In this document: in pieces, positions 2-37,847 of the stretch
Layout of the letters: every line of letters begins with the position of its first letter
Numbering within the stretch: position 1 is the first letter of the stretch
Source: a virus
DNA: 37,847 nt
Virus record (IMG/VR): IMGVR_UViG_3300025325_000973
Location: 1 to 37,847 of that record
Direction: 5' to 3' (one strand)
The notes under the pieces: generated by a model
Database searches by the model: none
What the model saw: the letters and a program-made list of their open reading frames with translations, nothing else
What the model was told of the DNA's origin: nothing
Made by a program: the position numbers and the translations under genes

Positions 2-262
2 GTTCGGCGCTCGACCGACGCTGAACGTGCCGAGAAGTTCCCGCCGCTCGTTCGTGGTCGCCGCCACATTCGTGTACCCAAGTACGTCGTCGTCGGGCCG
101 GGCAATCACATTTGCTCCGTGTTCGGACTGCCACAAGGCGGCGATACTCGTTCTGAAGCCGTGTTCTGGGCCGAGCGCTTCGCGTCCAAGAATGACTACT
201 CGTTCGTTCGACCTTCGGGTTGGGAAGGCGTTACCGCTGCTCTTGATGAGGAGCTGTCGTGA
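2..262 (+). CDS. Hypothetical protein, 3' part (frame enters from the left edge)
   Basis: The frame is open from base 2 to the TGA at 260-262 and gives 86 residues. I do not recognise the product. It has a basic stretch (RGRRHIRVPKYVVVG) and an acidic C-terminus (ALDEELS). Codons are GC-rich, unlike the AT-rich genes from 483 onward. Its stop codon overlaps the GTG start of the next gene, so the two are probably translated together. The frame is in register with the gene that leaves the right edge at 37675: joining the edges would give one protein of about 144 residues. The competing frame starting at base 27 lacks this coupling and was not chosen. Confidence 0.6.
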   Translation, partial: VRRSTDAERAEKFPPLVRGRRHIRVPKYVVVGPGNHICSVFGLPQGGDTRSEAVFWAERFASKNDYSFVRPSGWEGVTAALDEELS

Positions 263-486
263 CCTCCGACGAACTCAGAGCACTCGCTGATGAATGGGCA
301 CGTCTAGGGATTCCAGACAACGAGTTACCAATCGACCTCGCTCGGCTGTGCGCTGAGTTGGGGGAGGCGCTGGAAACCATTGAGCGGCTACGGACTTCGA
401 CGGCCCCCGAAGGGGATTGTCTCTCTGCTGCAACAACGCTGGCCCAGCGCGCCCTCGCCAAGCTCGCTGAGTTGAAGGCTCCATGA
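259..486 (+). CDS. Small hypothetical helical protein
   Basis: A 75-residue protein starting with GTG that overlaps the previous stop (GTGA). It is rich in Ala, Leu and Glu and should be almost entirely helical, with a likely coiled coil over residues 25-45 (LARLCAELGEALETIERLR). Function unknown. Codon use is GC-rich. Its stop (TGA, 484-486) overlaps the ATG at 483 of an AT-rich glycosyltransferase in an ATGA junction, so an abrupt change in base composition falls exactly on a start codon. Confidence 0.65.
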   Translation: MTSDELRALADEWARLGIPDNELPIDLARLCAELGEALETIERLRTSTAPEGDCLSAATTLAQRALAKLAELKAP

Positions 487-1196
487 AGATTGGAATCTTA
501 ACAGTAGCTTTTAATGAGCCAGAATTTATTGTTCCATGTATAAAACAATTTGAGGGATTTAATTTTCCGCATTTAATATTGGTATCCAATAAACCCTGGG
601 GCGGAAATTATCAAATGGACAATACTTGGGCGTTAGCCAAAATGTATAGCGATAACGTAATAATTGATTATTGGCCAAATGCAGCATCTCAATATAATTT
701 CGGATTAGAAATTCTAGAAAAACAAGGATTTGATTGGGTATTAATTGTTGATGCAGATGAATTTTATACCTCAGTAGATATAGGCCGGCTAGTAGGAGAA
801 ATGCGAAATACAAATGCTGATGTTATTTATGCTCCAAACATGTTTGTTTATTGGAAAACTTCAGATAATTTAATAAATCCCAAACAAGACGATTGCCCTA
901 TCATCGCAATAAAACCAAATTTTAGATTTGAATATATCAGAAACAACAATACACCTAATAGACAAGCAAGCATGGCTGAATTACATCATATGTCTTATGT
1001 TCGCTCAGACAAACAAATGAAAAAGAAAATAGAAACATCTAACCATTCACACGAATTTGACACAGAAAAATGGTATGAAGAAAAATGGTTGAAATGGACA
1101 CCGGAAATGACAGATTTACATCCCGTTGTTCCTAGGCAATTCGGCAGAACTATTTTCCATCCAGCCCCACAAGAGATTAGAAGATTGTTTTCATGA
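483..1196 (+). CDS. Family 2-like (GT-A) glycosyltransferase
   Basis: A 237-residue protein with the GT-A layout: an N-terminal strand-loop (ILTVAFNEPEFI) for nucleotide-sugar binding, then a hydrophobic strand ending in the metal-binding motif D90-A-D92-E93. This is the expected DxD-type site for a Mn-dependent transferase of the GT2 kind. The C-terminal half has an HxxH-rich stretch and aromatic residues that could bind the acceptor. No membrane segment is seen, so it should act in the cytoplasm. It is the first of six genes that overlap or nearly touch, and its own stop overlaps the next start by 4 bases. The sugar and acceptor cannot be read from the sequence. Confidence 0.8.
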   Translation: MKIGILTVAFNEPEFIVPCIKQFEGFNFPHLILVSNKPWGGNYQMDNTWALAKMYSDNVIIDYWPNAASQYNFGLEILEKQGFDWVLIVDADEFYTSVDIGRLVGEMRNTNADVIYAPNMFVYWKTSDNLINPKQDDCPIIAIKPNFRFEYIRNNNTPNRQASMAELHHMSYVRSDKQMKKKIETSNHSHEFDTEKWYEEKWLKWTPEMTDLHPVVPRQFGRTIFHPAPQEIRRLFS

Positions 1197-15040: not shown

Positions 15041-15637
15041 TTATACTTGATCGAAAATTACCTGTGTTCTTGTGTTTACATCCGCAATAGATGTATCTGC
15101 AAGAGCTCTGAAAGCAACAGGAATTGACTGTTGTTCTCCAGTCTTGTTATAAGGAACTGCCGATTCCTGCGCGGTTCTCTGAACTTTGCGGAATGCGTGC
15201 ATTCTCAACTTACCATTAGCTTTCTGGAAGATAACTGCAAGTCTCTTGCGAGTATAAATAGATGGCTCACCAACACCCATCTGACGGAATGAACCTGATG
15301 TTATAATTGCTCCACCCTCCCAAGCAAGTTGGAAGTTCTCAAGTGTAACTTCAGCAAGTGCGGTTGCTACACTCTGTTCATAAGTCACAGGCCGAGAGTC
15401 AATGTCGCCAAGAATCTGGTCTACGTCGAAGGTTTCCTCGGTGTTGTTTCGAGTAACTGTAATACCAGTCTTAGTAGCACCAACATCTACCCACCCTGTT
15501 TGTGCGTCAAATGTAGACAAGTTAATAACATCACCAACTGTAGTTGGGAATGCAATTGTAGTACCTGCTACAAGTAATCTTGCTGCACCACGGATGAAGT
15601 TGTCATCTGTGATTCCAGTTCTAAAAAAGTCTGCCAT
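15041..15637 (-). CDS. Major tail (tube) protein
   Basis: A 198-residue beta-rich protein, placed after the tail completion gene and before the chaperones and tape measure. It has the typical tube protein start (about 1-30, then STFDAQTGWVDVGATKTGITV) in which a strand reporting on a reference value is followed by TEETFDVDQILGDI. A very strong ribosome site (GAGGAGGTG) precedes the ATG, in line with high expression. A perfect 12-base palindrome (TAGTCATGACTA) lies in its leader near 15664-15675. Confidence 0.8.
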   Translation of the reverse strand: MADFFRTGITDDNFIRGAARLLVAGTTIAFPTTVGDVINLSTFDAQTGWVDVGATKTGITVTRNNTEETFDVDQILGDIDSRPVTYEQSVATALAEVTLENFQLAWEGGAIITSGSFRQMGVGEPSIYTRKRLAVIFQKANGKLRMHAFRKVQRTAQESAVPYNKTGEQQSIPVAFRALADTSIADVNTRTQVIFDQV

Positions 15638-26966: not shown

Positions 26967-27310
26967 TATGCTACCTTACGAATAGACCAATCAACAGTAA
27001 TAGTACCTGCAATGGCATCCAGCGTTACATCCCATCCGTGAAGAAGAATAATTGTAGGAGATACCCATACAGGAGTTGCTTGTGCCCCTACGAGGATAAA
27101 CTCTTCGATAACGCGCTGCGTCGAGGCTGATCCGACTTTTTCATAAAAGCGAATCTGCAACTGATCGCCCGCTACCATATCAGAAACATCGAGAAAGACC
27201 TGGAAAATTCCATCTGAAGTTTCAACATCTGGCCCGGCTGTATCAGTAGTCAGTGACCACTCAGTTGATGAGATTGCCTCAGAGCCCGCGAATGGCTCGG
27301 TGATTGCCAC
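26966..27310 (-). CDS. Putative virion protein
   Basis: A 114-residue beta-rich protein (DGIFQVFLDVSDMVAGDQLQ, then a final strand TITVDWSIRKVA). It is probably a small structural or fibre-associated protein. Codon use is GC-rich. It overlaps the repeat fibre gene's start. Confidence 0.55.
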   Translation of the reverse strand: MAITEPFAGSEAISSTEWSLTTDTAGPDVETSDGIFQVFLDVSDMVAGDQLQIRFYEKVGSASTQRVIEEFILVGAQATPVWVSPTIILLHGWDVTLDAIAGTITVDWSIRKVA

Positions 27311-27311
27311 G

Positions 27312-27500
27312 CTAGACCTCCCCTCGGATGCGGGTCAACTCGGCCGACAGTTCACTCGCGATTGTTTGCAACTTCGAGCGCAGATTGGCTCGGTTAGTAA
27401 AGGTTACAACGAAGGAACCAAGCTCGACTCCATTCTCGCGCAGATGAACATGCGCGACCTTCTTTGCGTCTGATACTACGTATGTCGCCGTTATCGCCAT
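27312..27500 (-). CDS. Small hypothetical protein
   Basis: A 62-residue protein with an N-terminal beta hairpin (ATYVVSDAKKVAHVHLRENG) and a C-terminal helix (LRSKLQTIASELSAELTRI). GC-rich codons. It overlaps the ends of both neighbours. Function unknown. Confidence 0.55.
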   Translation of the reverse strand: MAITATYVVSDAKKVAHVHLRENGVELGSFVVTFTNRANLRSKLQTIASELSAELTRIRGEV

Positions 27501-28342
27501 TAGTAGAGAAGATACATCCCAATGTCCATCGCCTCTGCCGTGCTAGAGGCGCTCGCCCGTACTTGCATCTGTGTTCCCGAAGGCAACTCGACCATGAAGG
27601 GCTGACTTGGCCACGGCCCTGTTACACTCTCTCCGGTAGTCGTCTCGTATTGCCATGAGGCAAGCGTGTCGGCGGTAGGAACAGCGGCCTCCCAGTAATA
27701 GGCCTGGCTGGTCATCACCGTGTCGCTCATCGTGCCTTGAGGAAGCGTGAGAACACCCTTGTAATGCCGAGAGAGAGTCGATCCGAAGTTGGTGTAGGCC
27801 GAAAACGCACCGGAGTTGCCAGCAGTATGGGAGGTCCCTCCCGATGTGGCCGTGTCAATTCCGTAGTCATCCATTCCCACACACATAGGCCAGCCGAGAT
27901 TCGATTCTCCTCCGAGTAGACCGATCTGTACACGTACCGTGTCCGAGGCGATAAGTGCCTGATTTCGTGCCGACACTCTCACACCCTTTGGAATGAAGAT
28001 CGGTAGAAAGAACCTGCGTCCCATGTAGGTTGCGCTCGCCGCTCCAGAGGCACTCCAACCACAGATCAGGTTAGAGATGATGACCTGTTCCGAGCCGCCG
28101 CCGGATGGCCCGATAGCGATGTCGAGCAACTGATCAGTGCGCGTATTCGCACCAGCGCTATCGCTGAGTCCTATCCAAAGACCAAAGGAGTCATAGTCTA
28201 CAGGGTCGATGAGTGATACCCACGAGCCTTTGGTATGAATCGTACTAGAAGCGGTTATGAGCGTACCCGAAGCCGTTGATGGCCCTCCCGAGAGGTTCGT
28301 TTGAAACGCAAGCCAGGAGGGAACAGGTAGAGCGAGCGCCAT
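27500..28342 (-). CDS. Putative virion surface protein
   Basis: A 280-residue protein, rich in Ser, Thr and Gly, with alternating strands throughout and no charged coiled coil. It opens LPVPSWLAFQTNL and contains MGRRFFLPIFIPKGVRVSAR near the middle, typical of a jelly-roll surface protein. No family named. Codons are GC-rich, unlike most virion genes here. A strong ribosome site (AAAGGAGGTT) precedes the ATG. Confidence 0.6.
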   Translation of the reverse strand: MALALPVPSWLAFQTNLSGGPSTASGTLITASSTIHTKGSWVSLIDPVDYDSFGLWIGLSDSAGANTRTDQLLDIAIGPSGGGSEQVIISNLICGWSASGAASATYMGRRFFLPIFIPKGVRVSARNQALIASDTVRVQIGLLGGESNLGWPMCVGMDDYGIDTATSGGTSHTAGNSGAFSAYTNFGSTLSRHYKGVLTLPQGTMSDTVMTSQAYYWEAAVPTADTLASWQYETTTGESVTGPWPSQPFMVELPSGTQMQVRASASSTAEAMDIGMYLLY

Positions 28343-28354
28343 CTATAACCTCCT

Positions 28355-29746
28355 TTACTGAGGTGCTACGTTAACCCACGCACCATTGATATACCGTTGA
28401 CAAGTAACATTAATTAATTGGAGATCGCCATCTAGATCAGTACAAGGAGGAGACGTGAAGAAATTCCCCTTCGCGCACCAGGGAGCGGTGTTATTCCCGG
28501 AGCGGAACTTCGCGTCCACGATCTTGGAGCCCGGAGCCACTTCGCCTGGATGCGCGTATAGGGAGGCGTGGCAGCCGATGAACTCGCCACCGAGCACGGA
28601 TGCCTGCGATGCGTTCAGAGAGTAGAAGACCGTGCCGCCAGCAGCCTGCGTGTTCGACTCGCCAGCCGCGTAGTCGCCGCAGCCCTTGATGTTGACGAAG
28701 TTGTTTCCGGCTCCCCCTTGTAATTGAATACAATCTTGATGATCGCCAACACCGGGAACAGCAAGTGGCCCTGAAGCGTTCAGAAAACCAGTCACATCAA
28801 CATTCTGCGGACCGGGACTCATTCTTGTCTTGAATGGATCGGAGATGCGCCCGACGCCCACGAGGTATTGCTCCACAATCAGATCAATCGCGGGAGTACC
28901 ATCGCCCGAACAGCCGGTACGAAGCTCAATCCCGTTCTGGCCAACCTGAGCGGCGATATTCCAAGTTTGTACTACACGAATTGGAAGCGGACCTAGATTT
29001 GAGAGAGGTGTGGAACAGAACCATAGCTGGTTGGTAACAGTAATTGTAGTTCCAAATTCACAATCTCCCTCGTTGTAAATTGGTCCCCATTCCTCGCGGT
29101 TATCAACTGAACATAAGTCAGAAGGTGGTGGCGGAGGAGGAGCATTGAACTCATCATTATCAGCAGCATCTACACATCCAGGATCAGCGGGGAAATCAAT
29201 TAGCCCGTCTCCATCGTTATCCAAACCATCTGCACATTGAGCAACTGGCGGAGGTGGTGGTGGAGGATCATGTGGTATCGCGACATTGCGCGGAGCAGGA
29301 TCATGTGTATATGGAATATCTACAGGAGGCGCGTCGTAGGAAACTATTCCATTAATAACTCCAGGATCTACTGAGAATGGAACATCTACTGGAAGAGCAT
29401 CATAAGAAACTATTCCTGTAGTTGGAGGCGGGTCAACACATGTAGGAGGTGGATCAAGAGTAACAGTAATACCTGCAATTACTCCTGAATCTGCGGGAGG
29501 ATCAACACAAAATTCTGGTGGATCAACAGAAAACGGAACGTCCACAGGTAGGGCATCATAAGAAACTATTCCATTCACAACTCCAGGATCTACTGTAAAA
29601 GGAACATCTACTGCTGGTGCATCATATGTAAATACACCATTTTCTGGTGGTGGGTCATAAACGAAAGATTCGTGGGTTGCTGCTGCTGGAACTGCTAGTA
29701 CAAGAACAGCAACAAGCGCAGAAAGTGCAAAAAATACTTTTTTCAT
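28355..29746 (-). CDS. Secreted composite protein with calcium-type motif and beta-helix
   Basis: A 463-residue protein. It starts with a signal peptide (cleavage near residue 23, AAA-TH). Residues 28-160 hold repeats of the form NGIVSYDALPVDVPFSVDPG. A proline run and a cysteine-bounded CADGLDNDGDGLIDF...DPGC calcium-binding-like motif (171-191) follow. After a second proline run, residues 220-460 look like a right-handed beta-helix (NFVNIKGCGDY, SVLGGEFIGCH). Its base composition shifts within the gene: GC-rich between about 28480 and 28720, AT-richer in the repeat-coding part. Its role may be on the virion or at the host surface. Confidence 0.65.
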   Translation of the reverse strand: MKKVFFALSALVAVLVLAVPAAATHESFVYDPPPENGVFTYDAPAVDVPFTVDPGVVNGIVSYDALPVDVPFSVDPPEFCVDPPADSGVIAGITVTLDPPPTCVDPPPTTGIVSYDALPVDVPFSVDPGVINGIVSYDAPPVDIPYTHDPAPRNVAIPHDPPPPPPPVAQCADGLDNDGDGLIDFPADPGCVDAADNDEFNAPPPPPPSDLCSVDNREEWGPIYNEGDCEFGTTITVTNQLWFCSTPLSNLGPLPIRVVQTWNIAAQVGQNGIELRTGCSGDGTPAIDLIVEQYLVGVGRISDPFKTRMSPGPQNVDVTGFLNASGPLAVPGVGDHQDCIQLQGGAGNNFVNIKGCGDYAAGESNTQAAGGTVFYSLNASQASVLGGEFIGCHASLYAHPGEVAPGSKIVDAKFRSGNNTAPWCAKGNFFTSPPCTDLDGDLQLINVTCQRYINGAWVNVAPQ

Positions 29747-29769
29747 ATTAACCCACCTTAATATCGTTA

Positions 29770-30243
29770 TTAACTTGCTCTAAAGAAACCGGCAGTTGCT
29801 ACTTGTGCTGTGATATCGCTTCCATCAGGAGTAACTACAAAGTCGTGTAGTGTTCCAGTAAGAATGTTTGCATCTGTACCGCCTGTACTATCTGAGTCAT
29901 ATCCAACAACAATATCGTTCCAACCATCTCCCGCTAATACTGCGGTCCAAGTTTGATCTGGGAAATCTACATCAACTTTGTCTCCGGTATCATCATAAGT
30001 AACTGTGATGCTTGATGTGTTATCAAGAATTTTTCTTGCGTAACCAGTGTTTGTAACATAATTGGTAGTACCGGCAACTAATGCTGTAAAGTCATCTAAA
30101 TCTTTTAATACTGAATCTGCTTCAATACCAGATGTAGCTAAAACAGCCACCACTAATACAGAGTTGGCTGGATCGTTAGCATTAACACGTTCGGCCCATT
30201 CTGTCATACGGCCAAGGCCACGGTTAAACATAATATTAGCCAT
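29770..30243 (-). CDS. Putative virion protein
   Basis: A 157-residue protein with a helical first third (RMTEWAERVNANDPANSVLV) and a beta-rich remainder rich in Asp, Thr and Gly. The repeated pattern of strands and the RASxAT-like C-terminal end fit a small coat or tail protein. It overlaps the previous gene by 8 bases. No clear family. Confidence 0.55.
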   Translation of the reverse strand: MANIMFNRGLGRMTEWAERVNANDPANSVLVVAVLATSGIEADSVLKDLDDFTALVAGTTNYVTNTGYARKILDNTSSITVTYDDTGDKVDVDFPDQTWTAVLAGDGWNDIVVGYDSDSTGGTDANILTGTLHDFVVTPDGSDITAQVATAGFFRAS

Positions 30244-30727
30244 TATCTTCCTCCAACTCTACTTCATAGTACCATTTAACCTCTCCACCGTAACCTTCAT
30301 CATCATCATTTTTTTCTGCCGGATATTTATCTGGATTTTGAACAACTTTATATTTTAAATCTCCGTCCATGAAATGGAAAAGTATAGCATCGGCTTGAAC
30401 AAAAGTATGAGTTACTTGCCAAAGATTATCTTTAGGTCCGCCTGGACGATGAACAACTTTCTTATTTTCTAGTTCCGCCCATCCTTCATCAACAGCTTTG
30501 TTTACAAACCCAGTATTTAAAGCAGTTTTTTTAGGTGTCTCCCCTTCAATTACAACGCCTACGAGTGGCCACGGATTGCTGGTCCACGTATCTCTATCAT
30601 CAAAATTCCATGTTGCTGGATCAGCTAAATAGCTTTCGCCAGTAACAGGATCATAGCGCTTTACACGCTCTCCTGACGATTTATCGGCTAGTTTTCTAAC
30701 TCTAAGCCCTTTAACTAATTCAGACAT
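30236..30727 (-). CDS. Hypothetical protein starting the second virion operon
   Basis: A 163-residue protein with a basic first third (KLADKSSGERVKRYDPVTGE) and an acidic C-terminus. The sequence around FVQADAILFHFMDGDLKYKVVQNPDKY looks like a beta-hairpin-rich domain. It is the first gene of the leftward operon that holds the fibre genes. The ribosome site is AAAGGAAAA. A perfect 15-base palindrome lies upstream (30772-30786). Confidence 0.55.
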   Translation of the reverse strand: MSELVKGLRVRKLADKSSGERVKRYDPVTGESYLADPATWNFDDRDTWTSNPWPLVGVVIEGETPKKTALNTGFVNKAVDEGWAELENKKVVHRPGGPKDNLWQVTHTFVQADAILFHFMDGDLKYKVVQNPDKYPAEKNDDDEGYGGEVKWYYEVELEEDNG

Positions 30728-30771
30728 ATATTTTCCTTTGCAAGGGATTCTACGTTTACAATACTATAATA

Positions 30772-30786
30772 CAGATATAATATCTG
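30772..30786. promoter_or_regulatory. Palindrome upstream of the second virion operon
   Basis: CAGATATAATATCTG is two 7-base arms (CAGATAT and ATATCTG) around one base. It overlaps AT-rich sequence resembling a -10 box (TATTAT on the minus strand), about 45 bases before the ATG at 30727. It could be an operator for a dimeric repressor. No second copy was seen in this window. Confidence 0.4.
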
Positions 30787-30805
30787 AATTAGGGCTAAAT
30801 TTAGG

Positions 30806-30890
30806 CAAAAAAAATAGAGACTTTATCGGCCTCTACATTAGTTGGCGCGTTCTCCGTTTCAGGTAGAGCGTCGGAAGCGATAAAGTCTCT
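30806..30890 (-). terminator. Intrinsic terminator with a nested hairpin after the macro-domain gene
   Basis: On the minus strand a perfect 13-bp helix (AGAGACTTTATCG with CGATAAAGTCTCT) begins 8 bases after the macro-domain stop and is followed by eight T residues. Between the arms a second helix (CTCTAC with GTAGAG) closes a 26-base loop. The long, two-tier stem is larger than a normal terminator. It would end the accessory transcript before the second virion operon. Confidence 0.75.
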
Positions 30891-30897
30891 TAATTAA

Positions 30898-31344
30898 CTA
30901 TACTGAAAATGTTATAGCCACAAACCTGTCATCGAGTATCTTTTCTAATAATGGTTTTACATCTTCCCAATCTAACTGTCCGTTACCACAACCAGGGCGA
31001 GGCATAACAATTTTATTGTATTTATATATATTTGCTATATACATTAATCCAAATGAAGAGGATTTTATTAAATCTATATCCGCTTTTTCCCACCAATTGT
31101 GTTTTACTGGCATAATCATCAAATTTTTGTTTATTTCTTTTCTGAATCCGAATGATTCAACTATGTTTCCATTTCTCTTTATAGATAAACCCAATGAAGT
31201 CGGCAGCCAAGGCATTTTAATTGAAGCTTCTTTTGCACATCCGCGTCCCATAACTGCTTCTCCATTTTTCTTAACAAATCCATTAGTAGTAATAACTACT
31301 GCATCGGCCGGATAAGTCCAAATATTTCCTGTATCTTCTCTCAT
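30898..31344 (-). CDS. Macro-domain ADP-ribosyl hydrolase-like protein (ALC1/DarG type)
   Basis: A 148-residue macro domain. N21, AVMGRGCAKEA (30-40) and the phosphate loop MPRPGCGNGQLDW (114-126) match the ALC1-like branch, which includes human TARG1 and bacterial DarG. K81 in PVKHNWW and D125 in LDW fall where TARG1/DarG-type enzymes have their catalytic residues (from memory of the family). Such enzymes remove ADP-ribose from DNA or proteins. In a phage this could reverse host DarT-like defence. It overlaps the 66-residue gene by 4 bases. It is a free-standing domain with no toxin gene beside it. Confidence 0.8.
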   Translation of the reverse strand: MREDTGNIWTYPADAVVITTNGFVKKNGEAVMGRGCAKEASIKMPWLPTSLGLSIKRNGNIVESFGFRKEINKNLMIMPVKHNWWEKADIDLIKSSSFGLMYIANIYKYNKIVMPRPGCGNGQLDWEDVKPLLEKILDDRFVAITFSV

Positions 31345-31541
31345 TTTTCTCCTTCAAAATATTTTTTATATTTTTCTGATATATCAGTTTCGCGCCATCC
31401 ATAATAATGAACAGGCTTACAATCACATAAATCGCTATAACAGTTACTAGTACAATAGGGACGTGTACTTAATATTATTTTGGCAGATAAAAGAAATTTT
31501 TTCAGATCATCTGCTTCCCAATCTCCTTCTGCTCTAATCAT
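31341..31541 (-). CDS. Cysteine-rich small protein between SLOG and macro genes
   Basis: A 66-residue protein with an N-terminal helix (DWEADDLKKFLLSAKIIL) and a cysteine cluster RPYCTSNCYSDLCDC (residues 27-41), possibly a metal site. It overlaps the SLOG gene by 8 bases and the macro-domain gene by 4, so the three are probably translated together. Function unknown. Confidence 0.6.
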   Translation of the reverse strand: MIRAEGDWEADDLKKFLLSAKIILSTRPYCTSNCYSDLCDCKPVHYYGWRETDISEKYKKYFEGEK

Positions 31542-31905
31542 TATTATTTATCTTCTCTACTTTAATTCCACGTTTATCTGCTTCATCAACTGTATTTTTG
31601 GTCCCTTTTGAATTATCTAAATCTTCATGAAACGCTATTACTAAATCTGGATTCATGTCTAACATTAATTTATTTCTTATTGGTCCAGCAGCTTTTCCAT
31701 ATCTTTTCCAATCTGCATGAACTTCGATTAAATTAACACCAAGAGTTTTGCACCAACTAGCTGCAATTCTATCCGCTCCTCTAGCCGCCCCAGAAATAAT
31801 TGTAATATCGTTACCATGCTCTTCTAGAAGTTCTCTAATACGTCGCAATATTGCATATCTATCTTCCCAATCTCTGGAGCCGCATATTAAAATTTTAAAA
31901 ATCAT
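31534..31905 (-). CDS. SLOG/DUF2493 (YspA-like) nucleotide-binding protein
   Basis: A 123-residue Rossmann-like protein. Diagnostic motifs are ILICGSRDW (6-13), TIISGAARGADRIA (about 39-52) and the YGKAAGPIRNKLML segment (about 71-84), the DUF2493/YspA branch of the SLOG superfamily, whose members bind nucleotides or NAD-derived ligands. SLOG domains serve as sensors in defence systems such as Thoeris, where they bind cyclic ADP-ribose. A phage copy without an effector could be a ligand sponge or regulator. Paired here with a macro domain. Confidence 0.8.
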   Translation of the reverse strand: MIFKILICGSRDWEDRYAILRRIRELLEEHGNDITIISGAARGADRIAASWCKTLGVNLIEVHADWKRYGKAAGPIRNKLMLDMNPDLVIAFHEDLDNSKGTKNTVDEADKRGIKVEKINNND

Positions 31906-31914
31906 ATTTTATCT

Positions 31915-32028
31915 TCATTCATCATCATGTGTTAACATCTCAAAGTGAGTTAACATTGCCATCCAACTAATATATGCTTTTCGAATAGCAATAACCGCAG
32001 GACTTTTTTCATAGACAAAATTAGCCAT
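31915..32028 (-). CDS. Mini-protein linking GC-rich and AT-rich genes
   Basis: A 37-residue protein starting at ATGGCT, which overlaps the stop of the GC-rich gene upstream (ATGGCTAA). It has a helical centre (KSPAVIAIRKAYISWMAML). Its end lies 10 bases before the SLOG gene. Codon use is AT-rich, so base composition changes at this start codon. Function unknown. Confidence 0.5.
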   Translation of the reverse strand: MANFVYEKSPAVIAIRKAYISWMAMLTHFEMLTHDDE

Positions 32029-32284
32029 TAAGTCCTGCCTCTCCCTGACTGAGCGGGGGAGTCTCGACGGAGCTCAAGGAGGAGTCATAAAGGAGTTTCA
32101 CAGACAGCTCAAGACGCCGCTCGACCGCGCGCGCGATACCGAGAGTTTCTCGCAGCGCCCCCTGCAACTCCACGATGTGTGCTTCGAGGCGGGTGATCTC
32201 CTCATCTAAGACATTCCACGAGCCGCCATGAAAGCGTGCGTAGTTCAGAGCCACTCGTATGCGCCGCACGTCCTCGCTAGGCAT
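32021..32284 (-). CDS. GC-rich coiled-coil protein
   Basis: An 87-residue protein starting at MPSEDVRRIRVAL; the ATG at 32284 overlaps the stop of the preceding gene (ATGCCTAG), while a start at 32326 would overlap by about 50 bases. It has a coiled coil (LDEEITRLEAHIVELQGAL, 29-47) resembling that of the gene at 259. Arg and GC-rich codons dominate. Function unknown. Confidence 0.6.
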   Translation of the reverse strand: MPSEDVRRIRVALNYARFHGGSWNVLDEEITRLEAHIVELQGALRETLGIARAVERRLELSVKLLYDSSLSSVETPPLSQGEAGLNG

Positions 32285-32912
32285 CGAGTTCCTCGGGATC
32301 AGGCAGTTCTCCCCATGCCTCACCATCCATGTCGTTTGGGTCAGGCCCTAGGTAATCGAAGTTCGTCTCCTTGGGTTCCTTGGCGAGGAGCGGGGCGAGG
32401 GCGCAGTTCTTATGATGTCGCCTCACTGGCCGCTCGCAAAGACGACAGAACTCTCCCATGCCGCCCACAACCAGTTCCTCCAGGCGTGGTTTCTCCGCCG
32501 CCCGCGCCACCTCGATCAGCGCGCGCAGGTGATTGCGGGAAAGGGCGATGAGGACGGCGTTTTCGCGGCCATGCCATGACGAAAAATCTTGCGTACCGCG
32601 CTCGCCTAGGATCACGTCCCATGCCCCGTAGACCGTAAGATCATCACCTGATCCAACGTTGTTGTGGATTGTTGCTATGTGGTCGGTACTGCTCGGGCCA
32701 TAACGGCTAGGAGCCACGGCCTCCCACGGCCCCGCCGTCGCCTCCTGCTCTCGCCGGTCGAGCTGGTCGAGCAGCGTGCCCTGGTTGTTCTTGTCGCGCC
32801 AACCGATCTCGCGACCAAGCATTACGTCCGTCGTATCCATAGCGTCGAGAGCTTCTTGTCCTAGCGGTTGTCTCCGACGTGTCTCTTTCCGGCTGTCAGG
32901 GGTGGCGGTCAT
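32277..32912 (-). CDS. Ea22/Ead-like hypothetical protein
   Basis: A 211-residue protein. The pattern REQEATAGPWEAV...ENAVLIALSRNHLRALIEVA (about 55-140) matches a domain widespread in temperate and actinophage accessory regions (Ea22/Ead-like). A Cys/His site CRLCERPVRRHHKNC follows, probably a zinc site, then an acidic tail. Start at ATGACC overlaps the stop of the AT-rich mini-gene upstream. GC-rich codons. Confidence 0.6.
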   Translation of the reverse strand: MTATPDSRKETRRRQPLGQEALDAMDTTDVMLGREIGWRDKNNQGTLLDQLDRREQEATAGPWEAVAPSRYGPSSTDHIATIHNNVGSGDDLTVYGAWDVILGERGTQDFSSWHGRENAVLIALSRNHLRALIEVARAAEKPRLEELVVGGMGEFCRLCERPVRRHHKNCALAPLLAKEPKETNFDYLGPDPNDMDGEAWGELPDPEELDA

Positions 32913-33007
32913 GCGTCCCACACCCAAAAAATAAGATTACCTAACATAGAGCCAAATACTCCCATCATCCATCCTATAAAATACCATTTTAATTCATTAC
33001 GTGTCAT
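32909..33007 (-). CDS. Single-span membrane mini-protein
   Basis: A 32-residue protein, basic at the start (MTRNELK), then a hydrophobic helix (WYFIGWMMGVFGSMLGNLIF, residues 8-27). It starts 1 base after the thymidine kinase stop and ends in an ATGA overlap with the GC-rich Ea22-like gene. A small membrane protein; role unknown. Confidence 0.5.
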   Translation of the reverse strand: MTRNELKWYFIGWMMGVFGSMLGNLIFWVWDA

Positions 33008-33008
33008 T

Positions 33009-33557
33009 TTAACCTGCTTGCCAGCATTGTTCACAGCGAGCTTCATATTGTTCCATACCCCCCACTTTAACAGTTTCTCCGTCTAATGGTGCGGGTTTTC
33101 CGTTAAGAATACGTTGCGTGTACATTGCGTCTTCTGTTCCGCACTTTTGGCACACTGATCTTAATTTAACAATAAATTTAGCCATTGCTAAAAGTTGCGG
33201 CATATAACCAAATGGTTGTTTATTAAATGTAAGATCAAGACCTGAAACAATTACTCTTTTTTCTTTTGTTAGCTGATTTACCACATCTATAATTTCCGAA
33301 TTAAAAAATTGTGCTTCGTCAATTGCGACAACATCGTAAAAATCAGAACAAATTTCATAAGCGGTATTTATTGCATAAGCTTCTGCTTTTAAACCAGAAT
33401 GGCTAACTATAGCGGATTTATCATATCTATCGTCTATTCTAGGTTTATAAACAATAGTTTTTTGATTAGCTATTTCCGCCCGACGCAATCTGCGAATTAA
33501 TTCTTCAGATTTGCCAGCATACATCGGCCCACAAATCACCTCAAGGTGTCCCGCCAA
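33009..33557 (-). CDS. tdk: Thymidine kinase
   Basis: A 182-residue thymidine kinase of the type II family. It has the P-loop GPMYAGKSEELIRRLRR (10-26), FYDVVAIDEAQFF (Walker B-like, 73-85), VSGLDLTFNKQPFG, and a zinc site CQKCG...CEQC. It phosphorylates thymidine to feed dTTP for phage DNA synthesis. The start is a TTG at 33557, preceded by AAGGCGGTG, inside the end of the upstream endonuclease gene. The first 12 residues are repeated at the start of that gene, so an endonuclease insertion has displaced the original start (see findings). Confidence 0.9.
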   Translation of the reverse strand: MAGHLEVICGPMYAGKSEELIRRLRRAEIANQKTIVYKPRIDDRYDKSAIVSHSGLKAEAYAINTAYEICSDFYDVVAIDEAQFFNSEIIDVVNQLTKEKRVIVSGLDLTFNKQPFGYMPQLLAMAKFIVKLRSVCQKCGTEDAMYTQRILNGKPAPLDGETVKVGGMEQYEARCEQCWQAG

Positions 33558-33981
33558 GATATTTCACCGCCTTAAGTAATTTATTAATGTCGTGATCAAA
33601 ACTTCCTAAAGCAATATTACATCTAAAACAAAGTGTTCCTCTTATAATTCCAGTATTTTTATCATGATCTATCATTAATTCTTTTCTTTTACCTTTCGGT
33701 TTTTCATTGCAAATATTGCAAATTCCGTTAGAAGAAGAAATCATTTTATTTCTTTCCTCCAAAGTTATTCCATACCTTCTTTTAAAATGTTCATTTCTTT
33801 TATGAAGAGGGTGTTTTTCATGCCACTTTTTAAAATAAATTTTTTCACACTTTCTACATGTTCCCCGTCTTCCATCTGGTTTTTTAGAATTTTTATTAAA
33901 TTCTAGTAAATTCTTATATTTTTTACAAGAAGAACATCTTTTGGTCATTGGTCCAGTTATAACTTCAAGATGGCCGCTCAT
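33541..33981 (-). CDS. Endonuclease VII-like homing nuclease inserted at the start of tdk
   Basis: A 146-residue protein. Its first 12 residues (MSGHLEVITGPM) are those of thymidine kinase, not of a nuclease. The body has a zinc pair RCSSCKKY and CRKCEKIYFKKWH, then the endonuclease VII core: NGICNICNEKPKG, LMIDHDKNTGIIRGTLCFRCN. This is the usual ICNIC...DHDxxTGxxRGxLCxxCN pattern, with the active-site D-H-D. The last codons carry the ribosome site for the kinase. This organisation indicates a mobile nuclease that landed just after codon 12 of tdk and uses the original start signals. Confidence 0.85.
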   Translation of the reverse strand: MSGHLEVITGPMTKRCSSCKKYKNLLEFNKNSKKPDGRRGTCRKCEKIYFKKWHEKHPLHKRNEHFKRRYGITLEERNKMISSSNGICNICNEKPKGKRKELMIDHDKNTGIIRGTLCFRCNIALGSFDHDINKLLKAVKYLGGTP

Positions 33982-34169
33982 TCTTCATCCTCGTAAAGTG
34001 GAACATCTGCATAGCCTTGTTCCCAAGCAATTTTAACAACATTCAGATTTTGAGTCCAAAGATTTTCTTCAAGATATTTTTTCAGATGCTCTATATATGG
34101 CGGGCGAAAAGTTCCTACCCATTTCCTAGGGCTGCCATCTTCTTTATATGGTTCAAATGTATATTTCAT
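33978..34169 (-). CDS. Small hypothetical protein
   Basis: A 63-residue protein, with a first half rich in aromatic and basic residues (MKYTFEPYKEDGSPRKWVG) and a C-terminal acidic end. Its ATG overlaps the previous stop (TAATG) and its stop overlaps the start of the endonuclease gene by 4 bases. Unknown family. Confidence 0.55.
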   Translation of the reverse strand: MKYTFEPYKEDGSPRKWVGTFRPPYIEHLKKYLEENLWTQNLNVVKIAWEQGYADVPLYEDEE

Positions 34170-34303
34170 TATATTCCAAACAAATTACCTATTATTTTAA
34201 AACCCGGCACAAATTTAAAAAGTCCATGTTCTAATGGAAATGCCGCCAAAGTTAAAAAACACCAAAAACAAAATTTTTTGCTATGTGTCTTACACTTATG
34301 CAT
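34169..34303 (-). CDS. Cysteine-rich, hydrophobic mini-protein
   Basis: A 44-residue protein: HKCKTHSKKFCFWC (2-15) could bind a metal, followed by hydrophobic FLTLAAFPLEHGLFKF. It starts with ATGCAT, which overlaps the stop of the possible ORF before it, and ends in a TAATG overlap with the next gene. Tight packing favours a real gene. Membrane association possible. Confidence 0.45.
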   Translation of the reverse strand: MHKCKTHSKKFCFWCFLTLAAFPLEHGLFKFVPGFKIIGNLFGI

Positions 34304-34406
34304 TATTTTTTGCCTTTTTAGCCGCTGAACTTATAGTTTTAGTAAAAGGATACAATTTGTGCATTTCTTTAGTTTTCGTGGCTAATTCTTTCAATTTATT
34401 GCTCAA
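34296..34406 (-). CDS. Possible basic mini-protein with TTG start
   Basis: A 36-residue open frame starting with TTG, 11 bases after AGGAG. It is rich in Lys and Ala (KTISSAAKKAKNNA) and ends in overlap with the next small gene. If real it would be a basic helical peptide. The start is uncertain. The 115 bases between 34407 and the holin stop at 34521 hold no gene I can support. Confidence 0.3.
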   Translation of the reverse strand: MSNKLKELATKTKEMHKLYPFTKTISSAAKKAKNNA

Positions 34407-34520
34407 CTCACATTCAACTCCTATTTTTATTAAAATTTGCTACTGTCTTTTCATCAAGTCGTTAAAAAGTTAATTTTGTGTTAATTTTTTGGCCAAATAG
34501 TAACCTTAACTTATGTTTTT

Positions 34521-34697
34521 TTATGAACTAGCAAAATATCCGCCTAAGAAAGCAAAAAGTGTTGTAAAAGCGCTAGCTACTTCAATAGGAACTTCTACAC
34601 CAGAAGAACTAAGTAACCAAATACCAATAATTGAAAGCGCACCGGCAGCAGTTCCTCCACCAACTTTAGAATGAATCTGTGTTTTTGTTTTAGTCAT
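34521..34697 (-). CDS. Holin (actinophage type, two-span)
   Basis: A 58-residue membrane protein: a basic start (MTKTKTQIHSK), a first hydrophobic helix (AAGALSIIGIWLLSSS), a turn with VEVPIEV, and a second helix (ASAFTTLFAFLGGYFASS). This layout with the VEVP turn between spans is typical of small actinophage holins. It would make holes or depolarise the membrane at lysis. The ribosome site GAGGGGGT is good. It starts 1 base after the stop of the gene at 34699. Confidence 0.7.
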   Translation of the reverse strand: MTKTKTQIHSKVGGGTAAGALSIIGIWLLSSSGVEVPIEVASAFTTLFAFLGGYFASS

Positions 34698-34698
34698 A

Positions 34699-34887
34699 TT
34701 ACCCCCTCTCTCTATATTTTCGCTTCGAGGGCATTCCGCCGAGTCCTCTTCTGAATAATTCTTTTATATATATCATTCTTTCTTTTTCTTTGCTTGAAGC
34801 TATGTTAGAAGAAGATGCTGTCATTTCTTTTCCCAAGCGGGCAATTGTTGATTTAAGAGCATCATCTGACAAATCACTAAGATTCAT
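34699..34887 (-). CDS. Small hypothetical protein upstream of holin
   Basis: A 62-residue protein, helical, with NLSDLSDDALKSTIARLGKEM first and a basic C-terminus (GGMPSKRKYRERG). No membrane span. It precedes the holin by 1 base and is probably cotranslated. Upstream sequence lacks a ribosome site, so it may be leaderless or coupled to the 5' gene. Confidence 0.55.
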   Translation of the reverse strand: MNLSDLSDDALKSTIARLGKEMTASSSNIASSKEKERMIYIKELFRRGLGGMPSKRKYRERG

Positions 34888-34923
34888 AATGTAAGAGTAA
34901 CAGATAACATCGCAAACATCAAG

Positions 34924-35478
34924 TTAAATATTAGTTAAGCCCCATTCAGCATATCTTTCCGGAATTTTACAATCAGGGAAATAGTATATTGGATTATTTA
35001 ATGTAAGTACATAATGATTTAATATCAAAAGAGGAATAAGTCTAGCTATAACTTCTTTTTCTGCGCCAAGGCTGATTAAAACATGATCATAGTTTTTCAT
35101 AGCTCTACATTCAGTTATAGCTTCATTTTCATTATTATTTATTCTTTTCAAATGAAAAGATTCATGAGTTAATGCAGACACACCAACAACTTTTATAAAA
35201 TCACTAAATTCTTCAACATCTAAATCTATAGCAAGAGCTCCGAGACAGGCATAATCGTCAATGACTGTAAATTTAGCTTGGCCAGTTGGTTTACTAACGT
35301 ATCCCCACGCATAATTTATTAATTCGTCTTCATTTCCATTTCGACACTTAACAACAACTGGTCTTTTTGCAATTTCACTAGCTATTCGATTTAAAAAGGG
35401 AACTTGAAATTCAGCTTTTGCTGCATTAACAAAAATGGCCGCAGCCAACAATAATACAACAAATAATTTCTTTTTCAT
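34924..35478 (-). CDS. Secreted HExxH metallopeptidase-like protein
   Basis: A 184-residue protein with a signal peptide (MKKKLFVVLLLAAAIFVNAA, cleavage near 22). Residues 101-125 contain THESFHLKRI (H105-E106-x-x-H109) followed by NENEAITECRAM, a pattern that fits a zinc-dependent HExxH peptidase with a downstream acidic ligand (E119 or E123). It is predicted to act outside the membrane. It is next to the holin, so a role in envelope breakdown or in remodelling of surface proteins is plausible. No closer family name can be given. Confidence 0.6.
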   Translation of the reverse strand: MKKKLFVVLLLAAAIFVNAAKAEFQVPFLNRIASEIAKRPVVVKCRNGNEDELINYAWGYVSKPTGQAKFTVIDDYACLGALAIDLDVEEFSDFIKVVGVSALTHESFHLKRINNNENEAITECRAMKNYDHVLISLGAEKEVIARLIPLLILNHYVLTLNNPIYYFPDCKIPERYAEWGLTNI

Positions 35479-35484
35479 TAATTA

Positions 35485-35493
35485 ACTATATCA
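35485..35493 (-). promoter_or_regulatory. Possible extended -10 box for the secreted HExxH gene
   Basis: The minus strand reads TGATATAGT, six bases before the ATG at 35478. It would place the start of transcription on the start codon. It is weaker than the boxes at 4689 and 36608 and overlaps the end of a 29-residue open frame. Confidence 0.35.
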
Positions 35494-35580
35494 ATTCCAT
35501 CTTCCTAATACTATCCATAAGCGCGGCCCTAATTTAATTTTTATATACCAACCTTCTTCATCTTTAAAGAATATATTCAT
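35491..35580 (-). CDS. 29-residue mini-protein
   Basis: A short open frame starting inside the end of the previous gene, with several aromatic residues (GWYIKIKLGPRLWIVLG). The overlap with its upstream neighbour and even codon use suggest a real gene, but it is too short to be sure. Confidence 0.35.
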   Translation of the reverse strand: MNIFFKDEEGWYIKIKLGPRLWIVLGRWN

Positions 35581-35815
35581 TATATGCTTCTGTGGTTATA
35601 CAAATTTCTCCTGAACAAATACCGAGATCAAATGGTCCAACACAAGGCGCAATAGTTCCATCACCAGTTATTCTATAAGCTTGCTCAGTACCACAAGTTT
35701 CACACACTACTCTTGCCGCCGAATTAGATTCAACAATAATTTGATGGCGTTGTTCTCTACGTTCGTTTCTAGCAATTAATTTTTTCTCAGCTATTAGTTT
35801 TTTGCTTCTCGCCAT
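35564..35815 (-). CDS. Small zinc-site protein
   Basis: An 83-residue protein, very basic at the start (MARSKKLIAEKKLIARNERR), then VVCETCGTEQAYRI and APCVGPFDLGICSGEIC. These cysteines could bind zinc. It starts 5 bases after the previous stop. Not recognised. Confidence 0.5.
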   Translation of the reverse strand: MARSKKLIAEKKLIARNERREQRHQIIVESNSAARVVCETCGTEQAYRITGDGTIAPCVGPFDLGICSGEICITTEAYNEYIL

Positions 35816-35820
35816 TTTTC

Positions 35821-35988
35821 TTATGGTTTGTATTTACAACCAGTACCATTACGGCACTCCCAATCAAAACTTTTGTGATAATCACAGCAATCTCGCCGCC
35901 GCAAACTAATTATCCATCTTAATCTACAACAATAATAACATTCTCTTTTAAGAAAACCAGTTTTAGGAATATAATTCATTTTTCTCAT
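35821..35988 (-). CDS. Small cysteine-rich protein
   Basis: A 55-residue protein starting at MRKMNYIPKTG after AGAAGAAG; a start at 36057 is possible but would overlap the preceding gene by 95 bases. It has ECYYCC, RDCCDYH and ECRNGTGCKYK, a likely zinc cluster. Function unknown. Confidence 0.45.
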   Translation of the reverse strand: MRKMNYIPKTGFLKRECYYCCRLRWIISLRRRDCCDYHKSFDWECRNGTGCKYKP

Positions 35989-36373
35989 ATTCTTCTTCTG
36001 TGGGTTCTGGCCCCCAACTTTGAGGCCAAAAATCGTATGGTTTGGCTTTTTCCCCATTAGGGCATACTAAACCTATAATCCAGGGTTTAATTGACCAATT
36101 ATTTGCCACTGGCGAATTACCTCCTTCAGATACTCTCCAAACTCTATTTCTATTCATATCTGCTTGAAGAGCCCTGACAAGTTCTTTTTTAGCACTTTTC
36201 CGTCGCAAAAATTCACCTTGCCAAATTTTTCTCCAAGTACCCGCACCAATAGATCCCTCCCATATAGTCGCACAATAGGTAGGCCAACAGCGTTTTATGT
36301 TCCATGAATAAGTATACATAGCACCACTATAGCACATTGTCATATGATTATATATTAATCTATAATTAAGCAT
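35963..36373 (-). CDS. Hypothetical protein, start uncertain
   Basis: A 136-residue frame. The first 20 residues come from very AT-rich sequence, and later ATGs (MCYSGAMYTYSWNI, MYTYSWN) could be the start. The body has GAGTWRKIWQGEFLRRKSAKK and, later, SVKPWIIGL-like hydrophobic words and an acidic end. No family. It lies between two small genes in the leftward accessory operon. Confidence 0.45.
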   Translation of the reverse strand: MLNYRLIYNHMTMCYSGAMYTYSWNIKRCWPTYCATIWEGSIGAGTWRKIWQGEFLRRKSAKKELVRALQADMNRNRVWRVSEGGNSPVANNWSIKPWIIGLVCPNGEKAKPYDFWPQSWGPEPTEEEYEKNELYS

Positions 36374-36384
36374 TATTGTATGAA

Positions 36385-36600
36385 CTATAGAAGTTGATGA
36401 ATTCTTATCCTTGCTTCATCCCACTCTTTCAGTTGATTATAAACTTTGTTCCAAGTATGGCGTTCAAAATCTCTCAATCCCTCCGCCGAAGTTTCGGCCC
36501 AAGACTTAGAATTCATAACTTCATAACTCATACCCCACTTCTCTTCATAATGTTGCAGTATAGCAAGTAAATCATCTCTAGTATAGGTATATCTTGTCAT
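36385..36600 (-). CDS. First gene of the leftward accessory operon
   Basis: A 71-residue helical protein (RDDLLAILQHYEEKWGMSYEV, then RHTWNKVYNQLKEWDEARIR). Family unknown. Its promoter (36608-36635) has near-consensus boxes and puts the start of transcription on the ATG itself, which suggests it is expressed early and translated from a leaderless message. Confidence 0.6.
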   Translation of the reverse strand: MTRYTYTRDDLLAILQHYEEKWGMSYEVMNSKSWAETSAEGLRDFERHTWNKVYNQLKEWDEARIRIHQLL

Positions 36601-36607
36601 ACCTATG

Positions 36608-36635
36608 ATTATAACATATTGCCTAAAATAGTCAA
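36608..36635 (-). promoter_or_regulatory. Strong promoter of the accessory operon, giving a leaderless message
   Basis: On the minus strand: TTGACT (36635-36630, five of six consensus), 16 bases, then TATAAT preceded by TGT (TGTTATAAT, 36616-36608), an extended -10. The -10 ends 7 bases before the ATG at 36600, so transcription should start at or within one base of the ATG. Leaderless genes are common in actinobacteria. Confidence 0.75.
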
Positions 36636-37269
36636 ATTGTATGAACCTAGGACTATCCTGACACCCTACCCTCCAAAGCCCCTTTTCAGGAAAAGACCGG
36701 GGGAGCCGTCGCTATCGCCGGCACGGCTACCAGGAGCTCGTCTAACGTCGCCGGAACCCTCGTCGGTGTCATACTGCGGCATCGCTCGAATGCCCGGAGA
36801 TCGCCCCTCATACCCCCTAGTGCAGCGCAACGCAAAAGACACCTAAACTTCACCATGCTAAACATACCTGCCCTTACCGTGGGTTCTGCCAGTACCGGGA
36901 GATGCCGAAGGACGACGAGCGGTCGAATCGTTGCAAACATCCTTCGCGCGGTGCTAGTGGATACAAGTAGTCAGCGCCCGTATCTGAAAGTAGTCTCGTA
37001 ACACCGTGGCGGCTTCCCTGTAGCGAAAGCAGGGGGAGCAGCGGAGGAGACTAGGAATAGGATACGGGGGGCGAAGTTACTACCACTAGCACGGCACTAC
37101 GGGAAAGGATGCTAAGTACCTGTATCAGTCGCCAGAGCGCGGGACAATATGCAAGTGTCATAAACGCAATGCGGCTGGAAACGAAAGAGGGTACAGCTAA
37201 TCGGCACCGCGAGAACACCTAGCCTGATATGCCCACTGTATGACGCTGTAAGGGGACGGCAGGCTGGGA

Positions 37270-37466
37270 CCGTACTATTTGTACCCTGCTGTAGGGAATC
37301 GGTTTTATGCAGCGGAAGCGACTTAGCCTAAGTGAGAAGCGTACCCCGGAGTAGTGGAGGTTGCAGCGGAAACTAGGAACAGTGGAAATTTTCGGTTGCC
37401 CCGGAACATTGTTCACGTGAGAAGCGATAAAACCGATTCCCTATAAGAGGGTACAAGTAGAAACGG
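37270..37466 (+). repeat. Structured RNA unit 1
   Basis: From outside in: CCGT with ACGG (270-273/463-466 past 37000); 13 bp 275-287 with 448-460, one G-T pair; internal loop GCTG opposite TAAG (288-291/444-447); perfect 17 bp 292-308 with 427-443. The arms enclose about 118 bases with further hairpins and a GC-GGAA-GC tetraloop. Confidence 0.8.
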
Positions 37467-37469
37467 TAT

Positions 37470-37622
37470 CCGTACTATTTGATCCCTGCTACAGGGAGTC
37501 GGCGGATAGGGGAATACGTGCGAAGGAAACCCGTCGCAGCTAGATACGGACCGTCTAGGGAGTCGCATACTCCGATAATGACGGTTTCCGACTCCCTGTA
37601 AGAGGGATCAGGTAGATAACGG
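37470..37622 (+). repeat. Structured RNA unit 2
   Basis: Same plan as unit 1: CCGT with ACGG (470-473/619-622); 13 bp 475-487 with 603-615, two G-T pairs; internal loop GCTA opposite TAAG (488-491/599-602); 11 bp 492-502 with 588-598. It differs from unit 1 at four helix positions, each with a matching change in the partner base. Confidence 0.8.
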
Positions 37623-37674
37623 TAGGCTTTACTAACTTGCGTCCGGGGTTCCGGGAGAACGGAGAACGGACGTA

Positions 37675-37847
37675 ATGAGAACCATCCCAGTAGCAGAGGT
37701 TCAGGATGCTCCTATCCATTCCTTCGGGCGACTGAGTACCCTGCGCGCCGACTTTCGTAACTGGTACGAGTCGGGCGATACGACTCAGGCCGCCGAGTTT
37801 CGGCTTGGCGGTAAGGAGGACCCGGAGCGCGACGGGTCGGATTCGCA
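37675..37847 (+). CDS. Hypothetical protein, 5' part (runs off the right edge)
   Basis: Frame open from ATG at 37675 to the edge (57 codons), GC-rich, with ribosome site GGAG at 37661 in the loop of a hairpin (CGTCCG 37640, CGGACG 37667) that ends the structured RNA. It begins MRTIPVAEVQDAPIHSFG and is not recognised. Its frame continues in register into the open frame at base 2 if the edges join. Confidence 0.6.
   Translation, partial: MRTIPVAEVQDAPIHSFGRLSTLRADFRNWYESGDTTQAAEFRLGGKEDPERDGSDS

Follow-up and report, generated by a model that had tools for sequence, protein, structure and literature searches.

Near the right end of a tailed-phage record, marked as such by its tape-measure and major-capsid genes, lies a probable structured RNA on the + strand that extends over about 740 nt (36936-37680) and perhaps starts further 5'. 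The window, by which we mean the whole stretch of DNA analysed, comprises the 37,847 nucleotides of IMG/VR virus record IMGVR_UViG_3300025325_000973 (positions 1-37,847, one strand, classed linear). It is best read as a large, so far unclassified structured RNA of the phage that either stands alone or leads the operon downstream of it, and a structured RNA that acts through its shape is most likely. We give about an even chance to the reading as a phage-encoded, large structured non-coding RNA of this strand and length, within which a free-standing mode and a role as scaffold or particle are held with low confidence. To our knowledge, few large structured RNAs of phages have been described so far, and a further one outside the known families offers probing and cryo-EM a well-defined target.

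Extent and domain structure of the RNA

The first-pass annotation had proposed a structured RNA of about 1 kb at 36655-37673. This proposal holds for approximately 36936-37680, where domain B, the two tandem units, domain D and the 3' hairpin fold better than their shuffles and no coding signal is present, but it fails for the 5' third, which has no excess structure. Compared with 150 dinucleotide shuffles, the + strand gave z-scores of -8.2 in unit 1, -7.2 in unit 2, -6.4 in domain B (0/150 shuffles folded as well), -3.0 in the 3' segment and -2.3 in domain D. In all five of these structured domains, folding of the - strand was less favourable in energy, and 36690-37660 as a whole gave a z-score of -7.1 on the + strand and -3.5 on the - strand. 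Every non-Watson-Crick pair in the arms is a G-U pair on the + strand, which, together with the lower + strand energies in 5/5 domains, bears out the earlier assignment to this strand. Selection on + strand RNA structure, also claimed at first pass, is well supported for the ~740 nt by the pairing, the double changes described below and the z-scores; excess structure, compensatory changes and absence of a coding signal, the general marks of a large structured non-coding RNA, occur together in 36936-37680 only.

The 5' third (36655-36935) has neither a coding signal on the + strand nor structural excess. Its scored part (36690-36935) forms a less stable fold than the shuffled sequences do (z +2.0 for the + strand, +3.0 for the - strand), and shuffling it improved the energy of the whole region in 32/32 trials; the RNA was therefore trimmed from 1 kb to ~740 nt. 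Long-range pairs are predicted from this segment (36818-36823 with 37094-37099, p 0.99), and it may be a leader or lie outside the RNA. A closing helix joining the 5' and 3' ends was rejected as being at chance level (217/300).

Domain B (36936-37112) is a long irregular rod with helices 36951-36960/37083-37092 (p 1.00), 36977-36985/37060-37068 (p 0.95) and 36991-36997/37047-37053 (p 0.98), and its terminal hairpin is capped by GC-GAAA-GC (37012-37039). Domain C (37113-37215) may be a degenerate third version of the arm motif (AAGAGGGTACA), 87% identical to the 3' arm of unit 1 across 15 nt; its GTACCT/GGGTAC helix has p 0.96 in a fold without the 5' third, and the domain z-score is only -0.3. 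Domain D (37216-37268) is a hairpin formed by CCTAGCCTG and CAGGCTGGG (p 0.95-1.00). In unit 1, the 5' arm (37270-37308) pairs with the 3' arm (37427-37466) at p 0.96-1.00 and encloses a core (37309-37426) that contains two exact 10-nt repeats, TGCAGCGGAA (37308, 37362) and GTGAGAAGCG (37332, 37417). Unit 2 has its arms at 37470-37502 and 37588-37622, and its core (37503-37587), with hairpins at 37519-37538 and 37548-37587, is unlike that of unit 1. Alone, the cores gave z-scores of +0.3 (unit 1) and -1.5 (unit 2) and are not clearly steadier than chance. The last element is the 3' hairpin (37637-37675), in which candidate GGAG ribosome-binding sites of the next ORF are found.

Tandem arms and paired differences

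The two tandem homologous units were recovered where the first-pass annotation had placed them (37270-37466 and 37470-37622), as was their common plan of CCGT/ACGG, a 13-bp helix, a GCT/AAG internal loop and an upper helix of 12-19 bp. All 28 counted pairs form in both units; 22 are invariant, two differ on one side and four differ on both sides, in agreement with the four compensatory changes reported initially. The GCT/AAG internal loop is non-complementary and identical in both units. Sliding the partner strand by 1-3 columns reduced pairing from 100% to 34-46% and left no double changes. In a Monte Carlo simulation with 5+5 random substitutions in the 25 long-helix pairs, full pairing was retained in 7/400,000 trials, four of which had at least four double changes, and the shuffle control of the covariation tool, which is weak with two sequences, gave 27/500. 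Because no homologue was found, the covariation is drawn from two copies within a single molecule; this one unit-to-unit comparison may be taken as evidence of covariation, while a class would require independent sequences. Through its internal duplication, the RNA reports on its own structure.

Cognate arm pairing was calculated at -47.4 and -51.4 kcal/mol versus -33.3 and -36.3 kcal/mol for swapped arms, and this loss of ~11-18 kcal/mol indicates that the arm differences also disfavour cross-pairing of the two units, an effect that may be selected. The two arms would be rigid struts bearing different heads, with the GCU/AAG loop perhaps serving as one shared contact or protein-binding motif on both, and the paired differences would prevent either arm from pairing with the partner strand of the other. 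We tentatively picture an RNA that is produced on its own during infection and would serve as a scaffold or particle, not one that base-pairs with targets, a mode modelled on proposals for other large phage RNAs. A bolder version, in which the molecule belongs to a new class of large phage RNAs and its two orthogonal arms, set in tandem, show the same motif twice to give a pseudo-symmetric scaffold or multimer that needs no protein, seems unlikely.

Genomic setting and the downstream reading frame

The structured region is a stretch without a convincing gene, located between two gene sets of a compact phage genome. A protein-coding signal over the same bases, which the first-pass annotation had named as evidence against an RNA, was looked for and not detected: codon-phase G+C is flat over 36701-37660 (0.54/0.54/0.57, versus 0.67/0.51/0.64 in the downstream ORF) and likewise in the + frame of the 5' third, and neither table 11 nor reading TAG as Q gave a + strand ORF with a coding signal across the region. 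With TAG read as Q, one long + frame (165 codons, 36746-37243) and long - frames appear, none of them supported. The longest frames of the region matched no Pfam family. One - strand frame in the unsupported 5' third (36686-36940, 84 aa) has a weak phase signal (0.62/0.54/0.61), with no Pfam family and no phage relative found for it, and may be a gene. Genes upstream of the RNA are on the - strand. A small - strand ORF (36600-36385), divergent from the RNA, lies behind a good promoter-like site with an extended -10 (36635-36608).

Directly 3' of the RNA, an ORF starts at 37675 (37675-37847, + strand) and is cut by the window end. The structure could be a long 5' leader of an operon starting here and control its translation or transcription, with the ribosome-binding site held in the 3' hairpin; we regard this as possible but doubtful. 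The last base of the hairpin is the first base of the ORF's ATG and GGAG motifs lie inside the hairpin, which favours a leader, as does the lack of a terminator separating RNA and ORF (no convincing terminator was detected at the RNA 3' end). However, ~740 nt with tandem rods far exceeds usual leaders, and the ORF, within which the contig ends, has no assigned function. Mainly because of its size, a free-standing RNA is preferred. From 36366 up to the RNA, no sigma-70 type promoter-like site was detected on the + strand.

If the contig ends are joined, this ORF continues in frame into window 2-262, and the codon-phase G+C pattern of the joined ORF is similar on both sides of the junction; the contig may therefore be a circular genome without end repeats, cut inside the RNA/ORF module. 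A gap between the ends is possible, since the one relative of this ORF matches the left part only.

The region also differs in composition, with a G+C content of ~0.55 as against ~0.35 in the rest of the phage. G+C-rich blocks (~0.50-0.62) are located at window 27001-29500, 32001-33000, 36650-37847 and 1-482; those at 27001-29500 and 32001-33000 hold ORFs, and the two proteins tested had no phage relatives by tblastn. Such a shift in G+C and the long inverted repeats near the contig end would suit a DNA-level element in which imperfect inverted repeats make up a region for replication, recombination or packaging, but this is improbable given that the non-Watson-Crick arm pairs are without exception G-U on the + strand, that this strand folds better in 5/5 scored domains and that the conserved internal loop is non-complementary.

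Search for relatives and comparison with known large RNAs

No homologue of the RNA was detected by blastn against phages, plasmids and 399 genomes of one phylum, or, with 37260-37680 only as query, against E. coli. Homologues for alignment, as suggested at first pass, were sought among ten relatives of the phage recovered through the capsid protein, and none was found. The two longest of these contigs, G006 and G009, have gene order in common with window 483-27,000 and showed no counterpart to window 27,000-37,847. In G006, a G+C-rich structured block beside a syntenic gene was rejected as a counterpart of the RNA, being a gene for a collagen-like protein with Gly-Pro-Ala repeats (~33430-32873, - strand); the gene that it adjoins is syntenic with the glycosyltransferase-like window 483-1196. 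G009 contains a tmRNA gene (L026:3120-3466, - strand; Rfam 51.3 bits, ARAGORN tag ANNKLITLSRGMNIVSSRGLVYV) and an intergenic hairpin cluster (15181-15300, z -5.5) without an Rfam match.

Motif scans of viral contigs returned 8 matches for TACTATTTGNNCCCTGCT, 10 for GCAGCGGAA..GTGAGAAGCG and 18 for TAAGAGGGNNCANGTAGA, and a scan of genome contigs returned 2 for CTATTTGNNCCCTGCTNNAGGG, numbers that we estimate to be near chance expectation. The TACTATTTGNNCCCTGCT matches were rejected as homologues by blastn comparison, those to GCAGCGGAA..GTGAGAAGCG and CTATTTGNNCCCTGCTNNAGGG after inspection and blastn comparison, and those to TAAGAGGGNNCANGTAGA on testing for the partner strand. A two-arm covariance model (R1) found no relative; it is insensitive, scoring its own unit 2 at E 0.057 and missing unit 1. 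For an RNA that changes fast, motif scans and blastn can detect close relatives only, so the absence of relatives is weak evidence of rarity, and the collections may omit the record itself and its nearest kin. The RNA looks genuine but so far one-of-a-kind, and rests on one sequence.

The Rfam models matched nothing, whether in the whole window at gathering scores or in 36500-37800 with E values of up to 10. For the likeness to GOLLD and ROOL drawn at first pass, membership is unsupported, as neither covariance model matched the record and tRNAs are absent from the 37.8 kb window; the GOLLD control search gave weak hits in 5/14 genomes, none over the cut-off, and the ROOL control search was silent everywhere. 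A divergent GOLLD, ROOL or other known large RNA or ribozyme missed by current models would fit the phage origin, the size, the long rods and the shortness of the Rfam GOLLD model (416 positions, versus more than 800 nt for many GOLLD RNAs, whose 5' region is less conserved, according to PMC12286853), but is very improbable given the blank Rfam result even at E up to 10, the lack of a tRNA in the window and, for an intron, of an interrupted gene.

OLE, HEARO, raiA and group I/II introns (Rfam) resemble the present RNA as large structured bacterial RNAs, but none matched at E up to 10. No typical HEARO partner gene was identified adjoining the RNA, and a group I or II intron was rejected, there being no Rfam match and no split gene around it. 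ROOL (RF03087), a large ornate RNA of phages and prophages, is similar in kind; it differs by the lack of a model match (with its silent control) and of a tRNA in the window. With GOLLD (RF02032) the RNA has in common that it is large, structured and phage-encoded, whereas it lacks both a model match and a tRNA in the window, proximity to tRNA islands being usual for GOLLD, not obligatory (PMC12286853). Separable 5' and 3' domains, described there for GOLLD, are a further common feature, and the part of that source consulted does not mention a tandem arm pair like the present one in GOLLD. Both GOLLD and ROOL appear there as large RNAs of phages whose function is unknown and which assemble into a 14-mer and an 8-mer nanocage, respectively, and to these the present RNA may be compared by analogy only.
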